This document shows positions 3,471 to 19,986 of a stretch of 37,821 nt of DNA, one piece after another. The stretch spans positions 1-37,821 of the forward strand of contig NZ_JALUKE010000065.1 in assembly GCF_027056685.1 (NCBI RefSeq). The letters run 5' to 3'. Within the stretch, counting starts at the first letter, position 1; each line of letters starts with the position of its first letter. This stretch comes from Sulfurimonas sp. (GTDB taxonomy: Bacteria > Campylobacterota > Campylobacteria > Campylobacterales > Sulfurimonadaceae). The position numbers were made by a program, and so were the translations under genes. The notes under the pieces are model-generated. The model worked only from the letters and a program-made list of their open reading frames with translations. It made no database searches and had not been told where the DNA came from.

Positions 3471-5300
3471 GTGAAAAATTTTGGTTTAAATCTTTGGGCA
3501 AATAAAAACTTTATTATAGAAGATGGTGAGATAAAACTTAACTATAAATCTATGCCTTCTCTTTTAAACATCACAAAAAAGATACGAGAAAATGATGTAA
3601 AAGGCCCTATTCTTTTGCGTTTTCCACATCTCATAAACAAGCAGATACAAACGCTTTACAACTACTTTGAAAAAGCAATCCAAGAGAACGCTTATCAGGG
3701 AAAATTTAACGCTGTTTTTCCTCTTAAAGTAAACCAATTTCCAGCTGTTGTAGATGCCATAAGCAGACAAGGTCAAAAGTATAACTATGGACTTGAAGCT
3801 GGAAGTAAAGCAGAACTCATTATTGCTATGAGCAAAACTCCCCATAACGCAAATATTACGGTAAATGGTTTTAAAGACGAAGAGATGCTTACACTCAGTT
3901 TTATTGCAGCACAGAGTGGACACAATATTACTGTTACTATTGAGGGTCTTAATGAGTTAGAGACCATAATAAGTGTTGCGTCAAAACATAATCTAAAAGT
4001 TCCAAATATTGGTATACGAGTAAGACTGCATAGTGCAGGTAGTGGTAATTGGGCGAAAAGTGGCGGGATGGATGCTAAATTTGGACTCACTTCTACAGAG
4101 ATTATAGAGGCTATAAGTCTACTCAAAAATGCGAATCTTTTAGAGAAACTTACTATGATTCACTTTCATATTGGCTCACAGATGGCAGATATTGCGCCCA
4201 TTAAAAAAGCCCTACGAGAAGCGGGAAATATCTATGCAGAGCTTAAAAAAATGGGAGCAGTTTCACTCTCAAGTATAAACATAGGAGGCGGACTTGCAGT
4301 TGAGTATGAGCAACATACAAAATCAGACACAAGAAACTACTCTATAGAGGAGTTTTCAAGTTCTGTTGTCTTTTTACTTGGCGAAATTATGGATGCAAAA
4401 GATGTAACACATCCCGATATTTTTACAGAATCAGGACGTTTTGTGGTAGCTTCACATTCTGTTCTCATTACTCCTGTATTGGAGCTTTTTTCACAAGATT
4501 ATCAAGAACAATTACTCAACTTTAAAGAGAATAATCCTCCACTTATTGAAGAGCTTATTGAACTCAATCGTCTTTTAAACAATGCAAACTGTATAGAGTA
4601 TCTCCACGATGCACTTGACCATATGGAGTCACTTTTTACACTCTTTGATTTAGGTTATATTGACCTGCAAGACCGTTCAAACGCAGAGATACTTGTCCAC
4701 AATATCATTAAGAAAGCACTCTATCTAAAGTCATCAAATCCGACAAATGAGCTTGAAGCACTACAAACAAAACTTCAAGAACGCTACCTTATAAACGCCT
4801 CTATTTTTCAGAGTCTTCCTGATTATTGGGGTCTAGGACAACACTTTCCAGTGATGCCAATTCATCATCTCAACATTACACCACTTCGTGCTGCTTCTTT
4901 GTGGGACATCACTTGTGATAGTGATGGAGAGATTGGCTTTAATCCTGAGAAACCTCTCTATCTTCACGATGTAAACCTTGATGAAGAGGATTATTTTCTT
5001 GGATTTTTTAATGTCGGCGCTTACCAAGAGACCTTAGGTATGAATCACAATCTTTTTACCCATCCAAATGAATATACCATCATCATTAATGATACAGATT
5101 ATGAAATATCAAACGCAGTCGAATCAAAAAATATTTTACAAATCCTAGAATCTATTGGCTATGACGGCAATAATATTGTAACAAAACTTAATTCAGAACT
5201 TGAAAATAGTGAATTTATTGCAGAAAAAGAAAAAAGTGATACACTTGCGATATTAAAAAAACTTTTAAGTCAAAATGGCTATTTAAGAACTACAAACTAA
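3471..5300 (+). CDS. speA: Biosynthetic arginine decarboxylase SpeA
   Basis: A PLP enzyme of the fold-III family that decarboxylates arginine to agmatine, the first step of putrescine and spermidine synthesis. The PLP lysine lies in FPLKVNQF (Lys86). Further marks are HFHIGSQ, the phosphate-binding INIGGGLAVEYE, and the C-terminal WDITCDSDGEIG with the catalytic-type Cys. The 609 residues match the Campylobacterota SpeA size. It starts with GTG 3471 behind AAAGGGTAAAG and ends 9 bases before cysE, so the operon continues. Two sense-oriented AAACGCAG copies (both in the S-N-A frame) lie in the second half. Confidence 0.95.
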   Translation: MKNFGLNLWANKNFIIEDGEIKLNYKSMPSLLNITKKIRENDVKGPILLRFPHLINKQIQTLYNYFEKAIQENAYQGKFNAVFPLKVNQFPAVVDAISRQGQKYNYGLEAGSKAELIIAMSKTPHNANITVNGFKDEEMLTLSFIAAQSGHNITVTIEGLNELETIISVASKHNLKVPNIGIRVRLHSAGSGNWAKSGGMDAKFGLTSTEIIEAISLLKNANLLEKLTMIHFHIGSQMADIAPIKKALREAGNIYAELKKMGAVSLSSINIGGGLAVEYEQHTKSDTRNYSIEEFSSSVVFLLGEIMDAKDVTHPDIFTESGRFVVASHSVLITPVLELFSQDYQEQLLNFKENNPPLIEELIELNRLLNNANCIEYLHDALDHMESLFTLFDLGYIDLQDRSNAEILVHNIIKKALYLKSSNPTNELEALQTKLQERYLINASIFQSLPDYWGLGQHFPVMPIHHLNITPLRAASLWDITCDSDGEIGFNPEKPLYLHDVNLDEEDYFLGFFNVGAYQETLGMNHNLFTHPNEYTIIINDTDYEISNAVESKNILQILESIGYDGNNIVTKLNSELENSEFIAEKEKSDTLAILKKLLSQNGYLRTTN

Positions 5301-5309
5301 AGGACAAAA

Positions 5310-6011
5310 ATGGGTGTTTTTGCAAATATTAGAGAAGACTTTGCCAACGCTTATAAAAATGATCCAGCGCTCAATTCTAGACTTGATTTTGTCTTTAACT
5401 ATCCTGGTGTTTGGGCTGTCGCTTGGTATAGAGTAGCACATAAACTTTATACTTCTAACTTTAAAAGAACAGCAAGAATTATTATGGGCATAAACCAAAT
5501 TCTTACAAATATTGACATCCATCCTGCTGCAGTTATTGGTAGTCGTGTTTTTATTGACCATGGTGTCGGTGTTGTCATTGGAGAAACAGCTATTGTAGAA
5601 GATGATGTACTCATTTACCAGGGAGTTACTCTTGGTGGTGTTTCACTTATACACGGCAAACGCCATCCTACAATAAAAAAAGGCGCAGTTATTGGTGCTG
5701 GAGCAAAAATACTTGGCAATATTGAAATTGGAGAGTATGCAAAAGTTGGCGCAAACTCTGTTGTTGTTAAAGCCGTTCCAGATTGTTCTACTGCTATTGG
5801 TATTCCTGCGCATATCATCGAAAAAGGAAGATGTAAAGACCCCTTTATGCACAATATGCTTCCTGACATAAACAAAGAGATGTTTGAATATATGCTAAAA
5901 AGGGTTGCTGTACTTGAACATATTCTTATCAAAGATCACCATGAGTTACTCGATCAAGATTTAGAACTTGAAAATATTTACGAATCTTTCATAAAATCTA
6001 TGAAAAATTAA
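5310..6011 (+). CDS. cysE: Serine O-acetyltransferase
   Basis: CysE acetylates L-serine with acetyl-CoA to give O-acetylserine, the carbon acceptor for sulfide in cysteine synthesis. The N-terminus (VWAVAWYRVAHKLY) is the helical entry domain. From residue about 70 the left-handed beta-helix repeats begin (IHPAAVIGSRVFIDHGVGVVIGE, then GVTLGG, KRHPTIKKGAVIGAGAKILGNIEIG). Length, 233 residues, is on the short side and typical of these bacteria. The ATG follows AAAGGACAAAA, 9 bases after speA. It is the last gene of the left operon; no clear terminator follows. Confidence 0.94.
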   Translation: MGVFANIREDFANAYKNDPALNSRLDFVFNYPGVWAVAWYRVAHKLYTSNFKRTARIIMGINQILTNIDIHPAAVIGSRVFIDHGVGVVIGETAIVEDDVLIYQGVTLGGVSLIHGKRHPTIKKGAVIGAGAKILGNIEIGEYAKVGANSVVVKAVPDCSTAIGIPAHIIEKGRCKDPFMHNMLPDINKEMFEYMLKRVAVLEHILIKDHHELLDQDLELENIYESFIKSMKN

Positions 6012-6043
6012 TCTCTCTAAACTTATCTATACAATAGTTTTAG

Positions 6044-6049
6044 TATAAT
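6044..6049 (+). promoter_or_regulatory. Probable sigma-70 -10 box of aspC
   Basis: A perfect TATAAT preceded by a T-rich stretch (tagttttag) sits in the 67-base gap between cysE and aspC, 29 bases before the ATG. Campylobacterota promoters often rely on the -10 box and an upstream T-rich region rather than a conserved -35, which fits. This suggests aspC has its own start site. Confidence 0.55.
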
Positions 6050-6078
6050 TCCTTTAATATTTCGCTTAAAGGGTTTTT

Positions 6079-7251
6079 ATGCTAACAAAACGCATCAATA
6101 CACTATCTGAATCAATTACAATCGCTGTTTCTGCACTTGCACAAGAGCTAAAAGACGAAGGAAAAGATATATTAAGCTTTTCTGCTGGTGAACCAGACTT
6201 TGATACACCTCGAGTTATTAAAGATGCGGCAATCACTGCCATTAATGATGGTTTTACAAAATATACCGCTGTTGATGGTATCCCTGCTCTTAAATCTGCC
6301 GTTGCAAACAAACTCAAACGAGATAACAATCTTGAGTATTCACCAAAGCAGATTATAGTCAGCAATGGGGCAAAGCACTCTTTATTTAATCTTTTTTCAG
6401 CAAGTATTGAAGATGGTGCAGAGGTTATTATTCCCGCACCTTATTGGGTTACTTATCCTGAACTTGTAAAATATTGTGGTGGAAAAGTTGTAGAGATTCA
6501 AACAAGTGATGCTACTGCGTTTAAAATTACACCACAACAACTCAAAGATGCAATTACACCAAAAACTAAGATGTTAGTGCTAACAACACCATCAAATCCT
6601 ACTGGTGCAATTTACTCAAAAGAAGAGCTTACAGCACTTGGAGAGGTTTTAAAAGGTACAGACATAATTGTTGCAAGTGATGAGATGTATGAAAAACTTA
6701 CTTATGATGGTGAATTTATCTCGGCTGCTGCAATTAGTGAAGATATGTTTAAACGAACTGTTACTATTAATGGTCTTAGTAAATCTGTTGCAATGACTGG
6801 TTGGAGATTTGGGTATATGGCAGCTTATGATACAGAGCTTATTCAAGCAACAAAAAAACTACAGTCTCAAAGTACATCAAACATCTCTTCTATTACACAA
6901 TATGCTGCTATTGCTGGGCTTGATGGTTCTGCTGACGCAGATGTGGCAATGATGAGAAAAGAGTTTATAAAACGCCGTGATGAAGCAGTAGAACTTTTTA
7001 ATGCAGTAGATGGTCTTAGTGTTTTAAAACCAGATGGTGCATTTTATCTCTTTGTAAATATTCAAGAAGTAAGCAATGATTCACTTAACTTTGCAAAAGA
7101 TTTACTTGCAAGTAAAGGTGTTGCAGTTGTTCCTGGCGTTGGTTTTGGAAGTGAAGGTTACTTTAGATTTAGTTTTGCAACAGGTATGACGACTATAAGA
7201 GAAGGAATAAAAAGAATAGCTGAGTTCACTCAAGAACTCAAAAATAAGTAG
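6079..7251 (+). CDS. aspC: Class I PLP aminotransferase (aspartate aminotransferase type)
   Basis: A fold-type I aminotransferase of the I-gamma subgroup, probably interconverting aspartate/oxaloacetate with glutamate/2-oxoglutarate. Seen: SAGEPDFDTP (35-44), YTAVDGIPALK, SNGAKHSLFN, the TPSNPTGAIYS substrate loop (170-180), Asp201 in ASDEMYEKLTY, and the PLP lysine Lys235 in NGLSKSVAMTGWRFGY; FSFATG follows near the C-terminus. The 390 residues are standard. The same gene (named aspB) follows cysE in Campylobacter (from memory). Exact substrate cannot be fixed from sequence: prephenate or aromatic activity is possible. A 9-bp hairpin overlaps the stop codon and probably ends transcription. 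Confidence 0.9.
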   Translation: MLTKRINTLSESITIAVSALAQELKDEGKDILSFSAGEPDFDTPRVIKDAAITAINDGFTKYTAVDGIPALKSAVANKLKRDNNLEYSPKQIIVSNGAKHSLFNLFSASIEDGAEVIIPAPYWVTYPELVKYCGGKVVEIQTSDATAFKITPQQLKDAITPKTKMLVLTTPSNPTGAIYSKEELTALGEVLKGTDIIVASDEMYEKLTYDGEFISAAAISEDMFKRTVTINGLSKSVAMTGWRFGYMAAYDTELIQATKKLQSQSTSNISSITQYAAIAGLDGSADADVAMMRKEFIKRRDEAVELFNAVDGLSVLKPDGAFYLFVNIQEVSNDSLNFAKDLLASKGVAVVPGVGFGSEGYFRFSFATGMTTIREGIKRIAEFTQELKNK

Positions 7252-7267
7252 GTTCTAAAACCTACTT
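7246..7267. terminator. Bidirectional hairpin between aspC and the 67-aa gene
   Basis: AAGTAGGTT, a 4-base loop (CTAA) and AACCTACTT form a perfect 9-bp stem. It spans the aspC stop and the last codons of the convergent small gene. It has A-rich sequence before and T/A-rich sequence after, so it could act as an intrinsic terminator in both directions. The U-tract is weak (ttt only), so efficiency is uncertain. Confidence 0.6.
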
Positions 7268-7465
7268 TAAAGCTGATAAAGCTTCTATAACTGCATCAAC
7301 ATTTTCAAGTGGAATATGTACTTTCCACTCTGGCTCATCAGAATTTCCTGCTAAAGAGATACCTACACTTGCCACAGCACCACTTCCTGCCCCGTAAGGC
7401 TCTTCAATTTTTCTAACAGAAATTACTCCGTTTTTTGTACCGTTTAATGGAATTATTTTTGACAT
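7262..7465 (-). CDS. Conserved-looking 67-aa hypothetical protein
   Basis: I do not recognise this family. The 67-residue product is soluble-looking (MSKIIPLNGTKNGVISVRKIEEPYGAGSGAVASVGISL...), with a glycine-rich middle and an amphipathic C-terminal helix (ENVDAVIEALSALK). It has no Cys, signal peptide or membrane segment. A very good AAAGGAG ribosome site sits before the ATG, it lies 16 bases after lpxD in the same direction, and it ends at a hairpin terminator. These features support a real gene, last in the ilvB-ilvN-lpxD transcript. The pattern of short beta strands and one helix might suit a small binding protein, but that is a guess. Confidence 0.7.
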   Translation of the reverse strand: MSKIIPLNGTKNGVISVRKIEEPYGAGSGAVASVGISLAGNSDEPEWKVHIPLENVDAVIEALSALK

Positions 7466-7481
7466 TTCCGACTCCTTTTAT

Positions 7482-8432
7482 TTATTTGACAAGTTTAGCA
7501 AGTTTTGCCTGAAATTTCAACCACTCTCTATGACCCATCAAAGGAAAACCCGCATAAGTTTTACCTGGTTCTTTTATGGAATTTGTAATACCACTACGAG
7601 CAGCAAAGGTAGAAAACGGTGCAACTTCCAAATGTCCAGCAGTTGCAGATTGACCACCCATGACAACATTGCGTCCAAGTTTTGTAGAACCTGCAAGACC
7701 AGATTGAGAAACCATTACACTATATTCCCCTACTTCACAGTTATGCCCAATTTGGACAAGGTTGTCGATGCGTGTACCTTTTTTAATAAGTGTTGAGCCA
7801 AATACAGCACGGTCAAGACTCGTGTTGCTTCCAATTTCCACATCATCTTCAACAACGACATTTCCATTTTGATAAATCTTTTTATGCTCACCCATATTAT
7901 TTGTAGCAAATCCAAAACCATCAGAACCTATAACGCTGTTTGCATGAATAATACAATCATTTCCAATTTTACAGTCTCTATAGACAGTAACACTGGGATA
8001 AAGAGTAGTATTGTCGCCAATGATAGCCTCAGCACCAACATATACATGTGCCAAAATTATACAATTTTCACCAATGACTGCACCGTTTGCTATTTCGGCT
8101 TTATCAGAAATTTTTGAGCCCTTTCCTATAACTGCTTTAGGTAAAGTATCGTCTTCTATTGGAGGAGCAAAGTATTTTGAGAGAATTGCCATTGACCAGT
8201 AAGGATTTGCAACGACAAGTGCCAAAGAGTTAGTAGGAACTTCATTTTTTACATCTTCGGAGACAATTACTGCCGCTGCGTTTGTCTCTTTTATATCTTT
8301 GACATATTTTGAATTAGAGACAAAAGAGAGTTCATTCTCTTTCGCATTTTTTAAGGTATTCATACCTACAATCTCTACATCAGAACCTTGAAATTCTGCA
8401 CCAATTATAGAAGCTATTTCACTTAATTTCAT
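7482..8432 (-). CDS. lpxD: UDP-3-O-acylglucosamine N-acyltransferase LpxD
   Basis: LpxD adds the N-linked hydroxyacyl chain to UDP-3-O-acyl-glucosamine, the third step of lipid A synthesis. The N-terminal domain ([16 protein letters not shown]..., ending near [14 protein letters not shown]) is followed by the hexapeptide left-handed beta-helix from about residue 100. GSDGFGFA lies near residue 170 and the likely catalytic His (about His230) in [23 protein letters not shown]. The track start (8462) adds [10 protein letters not shown] and overlaps ilvN; ATG 8432 has a GAGAGGTAAG ribosome site and leaves a 4-base gap, giving 316 residues. The order ilvB-ilvN-lpxD is shared with Campylobacter (from memory). 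Confidence 0.94.
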
Positions 8433-14565: not shown

Positions 14566-14757
14566 ATGAAAGCACTGTTTCTTATTTGTCTGTTGTTCGT
14601 TTTTGGTACGTGCTCTAATGAAGTGAAACATAGTTTTACAAATGTTTGGTTTCAACTCGAATCTGATTCTTATAAAAAACTACCACAAACAGAAATTTCT
14701 TACTTTAAGCTCTCTAAAGATGGGCAAAATATCATTTTAGAAAATTTTACTATATAG
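14566..14757 (+). CDS. Small exported protein with N-terminal signal sequence
   Basis: Sixty-three residues from ATG 14566, which has an ideal TAGGAG site; the track start at 14539 lacks one. The N-terminus MKALFLICLLFVFGTCSNEV is a signal peptide. Cys16 suggests a lipoprotein, but the residues before it (FGT) fit the lipobox poorly. The rest (HSFTNVWFQLESDSYKKLPQTEISYFKLSKDGQNIILENFTI) resembles the start of a lipocalin-like or copper-resistance-type beta domain and looks cut short. Its 3' end overlaps the end of the hepT remnant, so it may be a truncated gene whose remainder was lost when that module arrived. I do not recognise a family. Confidence 0.5.
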   Translation: MKALFLICLLFVFGTCSNEVKHSFTNVWFQLESDSYKKLPQTEISYFKLSKDGQNIILENFTI

Positions 14758-15061
14758 CTTGTGCTTATCTATTCTTCCCACTACATCATCAAACACTTCT
14801 ATCAGTCCATAATCTTGAATCATTTTCTCTATCGTAATTTTTACAGTTGGTAACTTTGTATCACAAACATAGTAAATTTCTTGAGCATCTAAATCAAAAT
14901 AATGATGAGAAATAATATCTCTAATTTGCACCTTTCCAGTCTACTTCAGGAGAATCAATAAAAAAGTCGCTATCACCTACTACTTCAAATCTTGTTGGAA
15001 CAACATTCGTTGCGTTTAGAATCTGTTCAAGTAGTTCAACAACAAGTAATTTATCATACAT
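14737..15061 (-). pseudogene. hepT: Degenerate HepT-like HEPN toxin (DUF86)
   Basis: Two frames together spell a HepT/DUF86 HEPN RNase-type toxin. The first starts at ATG 15061 (MYDKLLVVELLEQILNATNVVPTRF...FFIDSPEVDWKGAN) and stops; the second runs QIRDIISHHYFDLDAQEIYYVCDTKLP to 14737. Removing one base in the aaagg run joins them as DWKVQIRDII. The RxxxxH motif (RDIISH) of HEPN RNases is present. From memory of relatives, about 35-40 residues are missing between the FFIDSP and VDWKG segments, the part containing LDAICM and GESL-type helices. Frameshift plus internal deletion argue against a working toxin. The track's 64-aa ORF (GTG 14931) is only the second piece. It overlaps the end of mntA, the standard arrangement. 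Confidence 0.75.
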
Positions 15062-15344
15062 AAATAGCTTCTTTTTCTATCCGTTTTTTCAAATGTGGGT
15101 TCATTTTTTCTCTCAAACGAACTATATCTACACTCTTATGAAAAATATTTTGCAGGTCTTCTTTGATATGCACGAGCATGAACATATCAGGAGTTTTTGT
15201 TTGTATGCAAATATCCACATCACTTGCTTCTGTCGCTTCATTGCGGGCAACCGAACCAAATATGCCAATATTTTCAATGCCATATTTGCTATCATTATTT
15301 TTTTTGTATTGTGCTAACAGATTTAAAGCATAATCACGATTCAT
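15054..15344 (-). CDS. mntA: MntA-like nucleotidyltransferase antitoxin
   Basis: A 96-residue minimal nucleotidyltransferase. The pol-beta signature is IFGSVARNEATEASDVDICI, with Gly30-Ser31 and Asp42/Asp44. In characterised MntA-HepT pairs this protein neutralises the HEPN toxin by adding AMP to it. The stop overlaps the hepT start (ATGTATGA), the typical layout. A GGAGG site and a TATAAT inside an 18-bp palindrome precede it. Since hepT looks broken, this may be an orphan antitoxin kept by chance, or one that protects against relatives of the toxin. Confidence 0.85.
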   Translation of the reverse strand: MNRDYALNLLAQYKKNNDSKYGIENIGIFGSVARNEATEASDVDICIQTKTPDMFMLVHIKEDLQNIFHKSVDIVRLREKMNPHLKKRIEKEAIYV

Positions 15345-16683: not shown

Positions 16684-17556
16684 ATGGTAGGTGGAATATT
16701 TGCAATTTTAGACGATATAGCAATGCTTATGGATGACACGGCAGCAGTTACGAAAATATCTGTAAAAAATACCGTGCCACTTTTAGGCGATGATCTCGCA
16801 GTAAACGCAGAAGAAGCTTCAGGCTACAACGCTTCAAGAGAGCTACCCGTTCTTTGGGCAATCACCAAAGGCTCATTTCGTAACAAGCTTATCATTCTGC
16901 CCATTGCTTTCATTCTCAGTGCCATAGCACCTTGGCTTATCTCACCCATTTTAGTACTTGGTGGGTTGTACCTTTCTTTTGAGGGTGCAGAGGTCATTTA
17001 TCACTATCTACACTCAAAGTTCAAAAAAGATGCTCATCACGAAGATAGTGCTAAAAAGCTCACAGAAGAGCAAAAAATAAAATCAGCCATTGTCACAGAC
17101 TTCATTCTATCCATAGAGATTGTAGTCGTTGCTCTTGGAAGCGTGATAGAGCAACCCTTTGTGATGCAGCTTGTCGTCGTCTCATTCATTGCTGTTTTAG
17201 CAACAGTTGGGGTCTATGGCATTGTTGCCCTGCTTGTGCGTATGGATGACATCGGGTACTACATCATTGAAAAAGCAGAAAGAGATTCCCTCAAAGAGAA
17301 GTTTGGCAAACTCCTTGTCACATCCCTGCCAAAGGTCATAAAAGTGCTCTCAGTTGTCGGAACCATTGCGATGCTGCTTGTTGCAGGAAGTCTCATCAGC
17401 CATCATTTAGATTTTATACACCATTTTTACAGCGAATACTTCTCCATGGTACCTATGCTTGCCTTTGATTTTGTATTGGCACTTATTACAGGTGCGATTT
17501 TACTTACATTTATCACGCTTTTTACTCCGATTGTTCCTGAGTCGAGCAATAAATAG
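16684..17556 (+). CDS. DUF808 (YedI-like) inner membrane protein
   Basis: A 290-residue member of the DUF808/YedI family. The N-terminus GGIFAILDDIAMLMDDTAAVTKISVKNTVPLLGDDLAVNAEEASGY is the family hallmark, followed by KGSFRNKLIILP and about five hydrophobic membrane segments (near residues 67-95, 140-160, 165-185, 215-235 and 255-280). The function is unknown. ATG 16684 follows GAGGTAGCA. The last 35 bases overlap, in the opposite direction, a remnant of a TIGR02757 gene, so these two genes were probably convergent neighbours before the downstream cassette arrived. The tail TPIVPESSNK may therefore be shaped by that overlap. Confidence 0.88.
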   Translation: MVGGIFAILDDIAMLMDDTAAVTKISVKNTVPLLGDDLAVNAEEASGYNASRELPVLWAITKGSFRNKLIILPIAFILSAIAPWLISPILVLGGLYLSFEGAEVIYHYLHSKFKKDAHHEDSAKKLTEEQKIKSAIVTDFILSIEIVVVALGSVIEQPFVMQLVVVSFIAVLATVGVYGIVALLVRMDDIGYYIIEKAERDSLKEKFGKLLVTSLPKVIKVLSVVGTIAMLLVAGSLISHHLDFIHHFYSEYFSMVPMLAFDFVLALITGAILLTFITLFTPIVPESSNK

Positions 17557-17596
17557 CAAAGTCGTATTTCAAAGGATTCTCTGTATCAGAACTCTT
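17522..17596 (-). pseudogene. Displaced 3' end of a TIGR02757 gene
   Basis: Read on the minus strand, 25 codons give K-S-S-D-T-E-N-P-L-K-Y-D-F-A-I-Y-C-S-T-Q-E-Q-S-E-stop. The intact TIGR02757 gene 1.7 kb away ends K-S-F-D-G-E-D-P-L-K-Y-D-F-A-L-Y-R-L-G-Q-E-G-L-A-stop, the same number of codons to the stop. In the core 15 positions (S to Y) 11 are identical, and most base changes are transitions. Upstream of the Lys the similarity ends and parE sequence begins. I read it as the host gene's original 3' end, displaced by insertion of the cassette. Confidence 0.75.
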
Positions 17597-17891
17597 TCTT
17601 ATGATATCTGTCTTTCCAATAGTTAGGTTTTCGTTGAAGTTGCATAATAGCTAAAACAATAATTTCTTCACCTCTCTGATAATAAATTATTCCAAATGGG
17701 AAACGATTTGTTAAACATCTTCTTATTTCTCCATCAAGTTTTTGCCAAGCGGTTGGAAATTCTAAAATCCTTTGAATTGTTTTTTGCACTTCATAAGCAA
17801 ACTCTACACCAAGATTTACTTTACATTCTTCATAGTAATCAACTGCAATATTTAACTCAAGTTCAGCATCTGGATGAAATAAATAAGTCAT
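17586..17891 (-). CDS. RelE/ParE-superfamily toxin
   Basis: A 101-residue toxin-like protein of the RelE/ParE fold: FHPDAELELNIAVDYYEECKVNLGVEFAYEVQKTIQRILEFPTAWQKL, then RRCLTNRFPFGIIYYQRGEEIIVLAIMQLQRKPNYW. The pattern of helical hairpin, LTNRFPFGIIY strand and final HxxRxP-like QRKPNYW is closest to ParE-type gyrase toxins, but target prediction is weak. Its ATG directly follows the antitoxin stop (TAAATG). Its stop codon lies inside the displaced TIGR02757 fragment, so its last residues are fixed by the insertion junction. Confidence 0.88.
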   Translation of the reverse strand: MTYLFHPDAELELNIAVDYYEECKVNLGVEFAYEVQKTIQRILEFPTAWQKLDGEIRRCLTNRFPFGIIYYQRGEEIIVLAIMQLQRKPNYWKDRYHKKEF

Positions 17892-18125
17892 TTATGAATT
17901 TAATCTTTTTGCTATTTTTTGAAAAACTTCATTTCCATCAATAAGAGTTATCGAGTTAGTTTCGATATCATTTTTTCTTTTGTTTACTTCCTTTATCCAA
18001 AGCGCATCTATTGAACTATTGGTAGGTGTAATACTCGCTAATATTCTATCAACAATTTTAGTTTTTAAATCTATTGGTAAGAGATTGATTTCATCAAATA
18101 ATTCTTCTTGTTTTAACGCTAACAT
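17892..18125 (-). CDS. Addiction-module antitoxin of the TIGR02574 type
   Basis: A 77-residue protein similar to addiction module components paired with ParE-like toxins: LFDEINLLPIDLKTKIVDRILASITPTNSSIDALWIKEVNKRKNDIETNSITLIDGNEVFQKI. The LPxxxKxxIVDxIL helix and the terminal GxEVFxKI motif are typical. It binds and blocks the partner toxin and probably represses its own promoter. A GGAGGG site and a palindromic TATAAT promoter precede it, and its stop abuts the toxin start. Confidence 0.85.
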   Translation of the reverse strand: MLALKQEELFDEINLLPIDLKTKIVDRILASITPTNSSIDALWIKEVNKRKNDIETNSITLIDGNEVFQKIAKRLNS

Positions 18126-18167
18126 TCAAAACCCTCCTTTTTTAAGGCAACTATTTATTTTTAAAGT

Positions 18168-18185
18168 TATGTGTATTATAACATA
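18168..18185 (-). promoter_or_regulatory. Palindromic promoter/operator of the parE-antitoxin operon
   Basis: TATGT and ACATA arms flank 8 bases containing the minus-strand -10 box TATAAT, 49 bases before the antitoxin ATG. The 18-mer differs at only two positions from the mntA promoter element 2.8 kb away. The placement over the -10 suits autorepression. Confidence 0.55.
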
Positions 18186-18268
18186 TACAACTTCATTGAA
18201 AAGTTTTGGTTTCTAAGTTGAGAAATATTTAAGCCATCCTTGAGGCAAATATTGATTCATGCATTTTG

Positions 18269-19141
18269 TTAGCTTTTAATACTTTCCATATCTTTTAAGC
18301 TTATGCCTTTTGTGCTCTTCCATTCAGTTAAACCATTTGCACTTCTTCCCATAACTATTGCAGCCGCTGCTGATGGGCTATTAAATAAATAGTCACTTGT
18401 AAAAACGAATTTTCCATTTTCTTTAATAATACTTTTATTGTTAATCAATTCTTGTCTTAACTTTTTCCAACCATCTGGATATGAATCAACTGTTGAAGAT
18501 GCGATTTCAGAACCTTTGAGCACAACAAATCCACCTGATGTTTGTTGCCCTTTTGCATTTGCACCTCGCGCAGCCTTGATAAAAAAGTTTGAATTTATTT
18601 TTTTATCATCAATTGACTCCTGAATCAATTCTTCAAAAGCTTTAAATCCCAAAACATTAACAAGCATTTTAATATTTTCAATAAACTCTTCCATTTCTGC
18701 TTGATCAGATTCAGAAATTGAAGGTTGCGTTGGTGTATTACTGTTTTTAACCTCGTAACGATTAATTTTAACTGCGATTTGATGCAACCTATTTTCTAAA
18801 TATTTTATATGAGCTTTATTGAGGTTGTCATCTTTACTTATTAAAACAACTGCTTCATTCCAATAGTCTTTTTCATTAAGATGTTGAGAGAGTCTTTTAA
18901 TAATATTTTCTGCCTCTCCAATATATATAACATCTTTTTCAGATGTTATATCTGGTTTACCAAATAAAAAATATACACCTGTATTTGAAAGTTCTTCTCT
19001 CTTAGCACTATCCTTAATCATATTTCTAGGTAACTTATATGCCTTACCTGTCCAGTTTGAAAGTTCACATGTCATTCTTCCATTTGGGATACCATCTAAT
19101 AAAAATAACTTTATTGTTTTAGCAAATACTTTTCCTCTCAT
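18269..19141 (-). CDS. GIY-YIG nuclease domain protein with DUF4357
   Basis: A 290-residue protein from ATG 19141, chosen because GGAGAATT lies just before it; the track adds 20 weak residues. After an N-terminal strand region (TIKLFLLDGIPNGRMTCELSNWTGKAYKLPR), the GIY-YIG domain shows TGVYFLFG (54-61), VIYIGEAENIIKRLSQH (71-87) and the metal-binding Glu in KYLENRLHQ (about Glu116). A linker leads to C-terminal DUF4357 (GGFVVLKGSEIASS...SPSAAAAIVMGRSANGLTEWKS). Such proteins are scattered accessory genes, often near restriction or defence loci; their biological role is not settled. It sits upstream of the toxin-antitoxin pair inside a cassette at the end of the TIGR02757 gene. Confidence 0.87.
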   Translation of the reverse strand: MRGKVFAKTIKLFLLDGIPNGRMTCELSNWTGKAYKLPRNMIKDSAKREELSNTGVYFLFGKPDITSEKDVIYIGEAENIIKRLSQHLNEKDYWNEAVVLISKDDNLNKAHIKYLENRLHQIAVKINRYEVKNSNTPTQPSISESDQAEMEEFIENIKMLVNVLGFKAFEELIQESIDDKKINSNFFIKAARGANAKGQQTSGGFVVLKGSEIASSTVDSYPDGWKKLRQELINNKSIIKENGKFVFTSDYLFNSPSAAAAIVMGRSANGLTEWKSTKGISLKDMESIKS

Positions 19142-19242
19142 AATTCTCCAATTTAAATATAAGCTCTTTATTAACAAACATTTTACACAAATCAACTCCA
19201 AATAGCAACATTAACCAACGAATTATCCCTCAAACAATATTT

Positions 19243-19986
19243 TCAAGCCAATCCTTCCTGCCCCAAACGATAAAGTGCAAAATCATACTTCAAAGGGTCT
19301 TCCCCGTCGAAACTTTTTAGCGTTTTCGTCAGTTCAAACGCAGCTTCGAGGTCGTAAGTCTTTCTTTTGAGCAGTCCTAAACGCAGCCCTACATGAAAAG
19401 TGTGTGTATCGAGTGGAATTATTAAGTCTGCCTTATTTACGCCACTCCACAGACCCATATCTATGTTGTCTTTTCGTACTACCCAGCGTAAAAACATCAT
19501 CCATCTCTTGAGTGCTCCTGCTCCCTTGCGTTTAGTCGTCACATTTCCCAGTAAAAAGGTGTAGCCTCTTGAGTTGTGAGGATAGAGTTCTCTGAGTCTG
19601 CTTATGAGAGCGTTTAGCCCATCTATTACGCTGCGTTTAGGAGCATAACTCTCTACAAAAACACCTTCAAGTGTTGTCACTGCGTTTAACCTTTTGAGTG
19701 CTATAAAAAGAGCGATGATGTCCTCACTCTTTTGAAATCTGTAGTAGTGATTTTGCAGCGCATTTTGTATCTCTTCATCACTTTTTTGCAGTAGCGAGAA
19801 GTCTAAAGAGTCTAAAAACTTCACAATCTGAGTAACATTGCCATAAGAAAAAAGCGCGCAAATAAGTGCGATATTTGCATCATTGTAGCGTTTGGCGACG
19901 ATGATGGGGTCGAGCTTTTCACTGTTTACTTCATCACTTCTGTTGCGTTTGGAAACTTCAGCGTCAAGCCTTGCTTTTATGCTCAT
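19243..19986 (-). CDS. TIGR02757 (DUF2400) family protein
   Basis: A 247-residue protein of the TIGR02757/DUF2400 family, common in Bacteroidetes and Campylobacterota. Helical, with landmarks YNDANIALICALFSYGNVTQIV near residue 34, KGAGALKRWMMFLRWVVRKDNIDMGLW near 150, IIPLDTHTFHVGLRLGLL and the terminal DGEDPLKYDFALYRLGQ. The LDTHTFHVGLRLGL segment recalls the HhH-GPD DNA glycosylase fold, but catalytic function is unproven. It overlaps rpoN by 4 bases (ATGA), so it ends that operon. A displaced copy of its 3' end lies at about 17.55 kb. It carries four exact AAACGCAG copies. Confidence 0.88.
   Translation of the reverse strand: MSIKARLDAEVSKRNRSDEVNSEKLDPIIVAKRYNDANIALICALFSYGNVTQIVKFLDSLDFSLLQKSDEEIQNALQNHYYRFQKSEDIIALFIALKRLNAVTTLEGVFVESYAPKRSVIDGLNALISRLRELYPHNSRGYTFLLGNVTTKRKGAGALKRWMMFLRWVVRKDNIDMGLWSGVNKADLIIPLDTHTFHVGLRLGLLKRKTYDLEAAFELTKTLKSFDGEDPLKYDFALYRLGQEGLA

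Follow-up and report, generated by a model that had tools for sequence, protein, structure and literature searches.

The locus examined here raises the question of what a gene for a GIY-YIG/DUF4357 protein does beside a toxin-antitoxin (TA) module at the end of a TIGR02757 gene, and of how these genes came to be neighbors. It lies in a 37,821-nt stretch of DNA from Sulfurimonas sp. (contig NZ_JALUKE010000065.1 of assembly GCF_027056685.1), referred to below as the window. The minus strand carries the nuclease gene (positions 18269 to 19141) and, adjacent to each other, an antitoxin gene (Unstab_antitox, PF09720; 17892 to 18125) and a ParE-type toxin gene (PF05016; 17586 to 17891). This pair has the composition of a type II ParDE-like TA module, in agreement with an earlier note on this DNA that had placed such a module beside the nuclease. 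The nuclease and TA stretch sits between TIGR02757 and DUF808 genes and is AT-rich (28-32% GC vs ~42% outside). On its far side (17549 to 17575, minus strand; NPLKYDFAIY), 27 nt partially duplicate the end of the TIGR02757 gene, with 81% identity to the 3' terminus of the intact copy (19270 to 19296, minus strand; E=0.007 over the window). Synteny in relatives delimits a larger insert (from 14.5 to 19.2 kb of the window), located between TIGR02757 and a CoA-binding gene. Also within this larger insert (14737 to 15344), a gene for an MntA-like nucleotidyltransferase antitoxin is accompanied by a truncated HepT-like fragment, possibly a decayed type VII TA.

The nuclease gene encodes 290 amino acids from an ATG at 19141. 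Its DUF4357 domain is complete (PF14267 positions 1-54 of 54; 78.7 bits), and its GIY-YIG domain scores slightly below the Pfam cut-off (PF01541; 21 vs 22.6 bits). The catalytic set (G55, Y57, Y73, G75, R83, E116, and N133) is conserved in an alignment of 85 family members, with Y73, G75, R83, E116, and N133 present in all 85 and Y57 in 84; the earlier descriptions of the nuclease core as competent in appearance and of DUF4357 as complete thus stand. The AlphaFold model has a mean pLDDT of 87. A Foldseek search of the PDB gave only a weak match, to a chain with the GIY-YIG fold (2lwf; probability 0.97 but E 0.095), and a PDB sequence search returned no significant relative. The PADLOC profile PDC-S14, a phage defense candidate, matches the protein over its full length (residues 6-286; E=1e-121).

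The domain content suggests a restriction-like role. DUF4357 also occurs in GmrSD homologs (PMC4619093) and is among the domains commonly linked to McrB (PMC11090510). As there is no partner methylase, modification-dependent cleavage would be the most economical mechanism. The N-terminal and DUF4357 domains would probably recognize modified or otherwise foreign DNA, sparing host DNA, and the GIY-YIG domain would cut the recognized DNA, amounting to a type-IV-like restriction. In one survey of Pseudomonas, PDC-S14 was at least as frequent in susceptible as in resistant strains (57% of 14 susceptible strains; PMC10855318), and the parts of the literature on this family available to us contain no phage assay. 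Alternatively, the gene may be an integron cassette, as argued below, whose product serves DNA repair, recombination, or other housekeeping rather than defense. GIY-YIG domains occur in repair enzymes too (the protein gave a weak UvrC-like hit), and the immediate neighbors of the nuclease family are diverse, mostly metabolic genes. Against this, the distribution is very patchy (DUF4357 in 8 of 298 genomes of the phylum), the protein falls into a PADLOC candidate class, and the other links of DUF4357 are to type IV restriction. We regard the housekeeping role as unlikely, while giving it some weight.

The anti-phage reading of the protein leaves the mobility of its gene to be explained. The family survey covered 80 genome loci plus the Campylobacterota hits of PF14267 (~85 loci). 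Four close copies (the window, L032, L039, and L040) share 85-91% DNA identity at four unrelated loci; the copy in the window is 85-88% identical in DNA, and 89-90% in protein, to the other three. Their homology (900 nt) comprises the ORF with ~20-29 nt on its 5' side and 3-5 nt on its 3' side, beyond which the flanks are unrelated; the same ORF-bounded pattern was seen in other close pairs, L108 and L118 (90%) among them. A single ORF with a minimal 5' leader and boundaries common to unrelated loci is what characterizes an integron cassette.

Further cassette traits lie at the gene ends. The nuclease gene of L039 is bordered by a terminal inverted repeat (GTTAGCTT...AAGCTAAC). GTT/AAC-type inverted repeats of at least 8 bp were found in 6 of 83 family members and 9 of 624 other ORFs (p=0.005), and attC-type repeats of this length were absent from 77 of the 83 loci across all taxa, including most Bacteroidota copies. 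Directly 3' of the L039 gene, a repeat of 61-70 bp recurs at IntI loci of its own and other genomes (L154, L155, and L145), and this repeat is an attC site. After an Rfam search for attC gave nothing, a covariance model of the repeat (R1) was built, in which attC members score 70-95 bits. R1 scores the intact L039 site at 82.7 bits and also detects an attC beside a distant DUF4357 gene (genome G237). In the window, a decayed attC follows the nuclease stop codon (18213 to 18271, minus strand); R1 did not detect it at E<5, and it was recognized by its pairwise match to an intact attC from the IntI locus of G270 (score 56, against at most 34 after shuffling; z 9.6). It retains R' (CTAACAA) and the AATATTTGCC...GGCTTAAATATT hairpin and has lost R''. 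An attC thus marks the 3' end of the nuclease cassette, intact in L039 and decayed in the window. The attC sites downstream of the four close copies are not common to them, whereas cassettes as a rule bring their own attC along; these units may therefore have been re-captured or have decayed.

Cassette-like terminal inverted repeats (GTTGGCGTG, GTTATGCGG, GTTGTGCCCC, and GTTGTGGCCA) were also observed at loci L112, L115, L085, L089, and L108, from Bacteroidota and Neomarinimicrobiota. The L112 copy lies amid many repeats of ~130-150 bp, and no IntI was found in its genome. In three Chryseobacterium species (L048, L050, and L051, around 4792-7586), a PDC-S14 gene lies between trpB and trpA on the same strand.

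A Pc promoter and attI copy lies directly upstream of the nuclease gene (19164 to 19215, minus strand), 22 nt before the ATG. It was recognized with R2, a sequence model of seven intI-proximal Pc-attI regions (E=4.3e-9), and scores 89 against the attI of G088 (shuffled maximum 51; z 10.3). R2 gave no match on eight TIGR02757 control loci. Possible Pc elements are a -35 box (TTGCTA) and a -10 box (TAAAAT) separated by 17 nt. The attI core (AATAAA.GAG) is slightly decayed; on direct reading, the expected junction between AATAAATAG and TTAGCTTACAT appears as AATAAA----GAGCTTATAT. The first cassette is therefore preceded by attI and Pc, as in an integron. The position next to attI that intI occupies in a complete integron is taken in the window by TIGR02757, and the IntI of this genome (378.6 bits; cut-off 265) is encoded on another contig (G000:C56). 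IntI is present in each of the four genomes with a close nuclease copy vs 6 of 101 genomes in the phylum sample, a co-occurrence (Fisher p=3e-4 without the window's own genome) that is confounded by genus and carries little weight. Since IntI is common in Sulfurimonas (10 of 16 chosen genomes with attI), it is partly a genus effect. No large cassette arrays were found beside IntI in five relatives. Upstream of the antitoxin gene, a 14-mer (18146 to 18159, minus strand; AATAAATAGTTGCC) is identical to the attI core and junction of G270 and may tentatively be taken as a second attI remnant; R2 scores this position at only E=0.7.

These attI and attC hallmarks on the Campylobacterota copies also bear on whether the protein is a free-standing homing endonuclease that moves its own gene. 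The GIY-YIG fold is that of homing nucleases, and a lone gene with near-exact boundaries between housekeeping genes, as in trpB-GIY-trpA of Chryseobacterium, would fit such an element. Homing implies a conserved insertion site, whereas the copies of the 85-91% group occupy four unrelated sites with no common target, and relatives of the nuclease occur in only 2 of 50,697 phage records. The site diversity of the close copies led us to discard this candidate, which we consider highly improbable.

The TA pair has a cassette history of its own. Among 19 relatives of the TA region in Sulfurimonas (75-85% DNA identity), 10 have an R1 attC located -16 to +13 nt from the end of the toxin homology. Because an attC directly follows the toxin in these relatives, the TA pair is also a cassette. 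In the window, the last toxin codons are replaced relative to the relatives, and the attC of the pair is truncated, most of it being lost at the boundary with the 27-nt TIGR02757 duplicate. The window thus holds one decayed and one truncated attC; a CALIN is defined by two or more attC sites without intI.

The recurrent linkage of DUF4357 and TA genes that the earlier note's proposal called for was found in a limited form: two Sulfurimonas arrays combine the two kinds of gene, and the pair itself is not recurrent in the loci surveyed. In G175, attI is followed by DUF4357 and a BrnT/CopG-type antitoxin, with DUF808 adjoining here too. In G374, DUF4357 is followed by one intervening cassette, the TA family of the window, a BrnT/antitoxin pair, and a C5 methylase with a PDDEXK endonuclease. 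The window, G175, and G374 have different DUF4357 subfamilies and partly different TA families, which is the outcome expected from cassette shuffling. In two genomes (L119, 5157-7698; window, 16684-19215), DUF808 is next to a DUF4357-TA unit led by attI, in differing orientation.

The idea of one undescribed unit, in which selection keeps nuclease and TA together as a mobile system of two parts at the 3' end of TIGR02757, with the nuclease spreading or defending it and the TA preventing its loss, draws on their adjacency on one strand, the common AT-rich insert, the 27-nt flanking repeat, and the co-occurrence of DUF4357 and TA cassettes in G175 and G374, but it is largely refuted and retains scarcely any probability, given that the closest nuclease relatives (L032, L039, and L040) lack the TA, that TA relatives are separate cassettes traveling without the nuclease, that a related TA lies within 2 kb in only one of ~85 loci (L101), and that, among 29 further TIGR02757 loci that were retrieved, not one has a DUF4357 gene within ~1.5 kb of the supposedly fixed gene end. 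A toxin relative near the nuclease was seen at two loci only, within 0.5 kb at L101 and 2.5 kb away at L053, and TA families do not recur among 158 immediate neighbors of the nuclease family. A recurrent nuclease-TA operon was rejected on these grounds, and, among the TIGR02757 loci retrieved, the 3' end of the gene is an insertion site in the window genome only. The nuclease and TA are neighbors through integron shuffling and do not form one new two-part machine.

We therefore consider it probable that the nuclease gene is an integron cassette behind Pc-attI, that the TA pair is a second cassette of the same intI-less mini-array, and that the nuclease is a candidate type-IV-like anti-phage enzyme. 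The cassette-like boundaries, the Pc-attI on the 5' side, the attC remnant on the 3' side, the attC sites at relatives of both genes, and the genomic IntI were observed. The IntI integrase would have recombined the nuclease cassette into the attI site behind Pc, on an attI-led platform without its own intI, the intI of the genome being located elsewhere. As the first-position cassette, the nuclease would be expressed from Pc as a single-gene anti-phage (PDC-S14) enzyme. The TA pair would be an independent two-ORF cassette that probably stabilizes the array, by analogy with TA cassettes in other integrons. In this form, the broader claim of the earlier note is upheld: the cassette is compact and mobile, and its addiction module adjoins what is probably a defense nuclease.

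Pc-attI copies similar to that of the window are widespread in the genus. R2 finds them in 97 of 135 Sulfurimonas genomes, with up to nine per genome. Inspection of 32 loci showed intI upstream in 8 and, in ~20 others, no intI within an upstream sequence of at least 0.7 kb. Two near-complete genomes (G358 and G425) contain three and five copies, respectively, and no IntI. At L164 and L171, intI has seemingly been deleted at the recN locus, and the homology of L177, L179, L184, and L166 ends near the intI start. Nine of 18 first ORFs behind intI-less copies (ORFs of at least 90 aa) match PADLOC profiles at E<=1e-5, in a small sample taken from the best-scoring attI copies. The matches are AbiTii, type II methylase, type IIG-like, PDC-S11, PDC-S32, TIR-TM, DUF4238, HamC, and PDC-S14. 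Tentatively, and with somewhat less than even confidence, we propose that Pc-attI platforms without intI are dispersed through Sulfurimonas genomes, that each expresses a single captured cassette or a small number of them, with many defense or TA genes among these, and that IntI encoded elsewhere in the genome feeds the platforms in trans; the window would hold one such platform. If this is true, scattered single-cassette expression sites represent a layout outside the complete/In0/CALIN scheme.

Several further features of these copies were noted. They are dispersed and mostly without intI, and the window genome has them at G000:C56, G000:C133, and 19164-19215. The genes first behind them are often defense or TA genes. 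In a second intI-less platform, on G000:C133 (L226, 15-816; the contig starts just before it), attI precedes a small ORF that seems to be broken, then a CopG-type antitoxin and, adjoining an aldolase-like gene, an attC. In G270, two near-identical 1.6-kb repeats with an IS110-family transposase (L120, 1302-2897 and 4933-6522) start at attI-like sequences, and this insertion sequence may target attI.

The cassette reading places a hitherto unplaced GIY-YIG/DUF4357 candidate within a defined mobility system, accounts for the scattering of lone genes and for chance TA neighbors, and extends to Campylobacterota the view that integrons store defense genes. Copies of Pc-attI that lack intI suggest how a first-position cassette could remain behind a strong promoter with no costly integrase to maintain, and the R1 and R2 models make the platform idea testable across genomes. 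That this is not a described system, as had been suggested, does not hold for its components: both TA cassettes (PMC8618304) and defense cassettes (PMC12409362) in integrons are established, and Sulfurimonas autotrophica has been listed with In0 and CALIN (PMC10295459).

Among known systems, the sedentary chromosomal integrons and CALINs of Vibrio cholerae and V. parahaemolyticus (PMC12409362) share with the window attC-bounded single-ORF cassettes, candidate defense genes, TA cassettes, and a genomic IntI. Unlike them, the window holds a mini-array of one or two cassettes led by its own Pc-attI without intI, and several intI-less platforms per genome occur across Sulfurimonas. Integron TA cassettes, such as those of the Vibrio superintegron, resemble the TA pair in their two ORFs and in the attC after the toxin seen in Sulfurimonas relatives, whereas the window copy lacks most of its attC. 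PDC-S14, which the nuclease matches in full, is a candidate for which the accessible portions of the literature contain no validation and do not mention an integron context. A GIY-YIG protein is likewise an integron cassette in Aeromonas sp. 3925 (orf6; PMC10609294), which belongs to a different phylum and for which the GIY-YIG subfamily is not stated. The type IV restriction systems GmrSD and McrBC are related through DUF4357, which is fused to or associated with them in other genomes (PMC4619093 and PMC11090510), whereas the window nuclease is without GmrSD or McrBC domains and has GIY-YIG as its nuclease domain.
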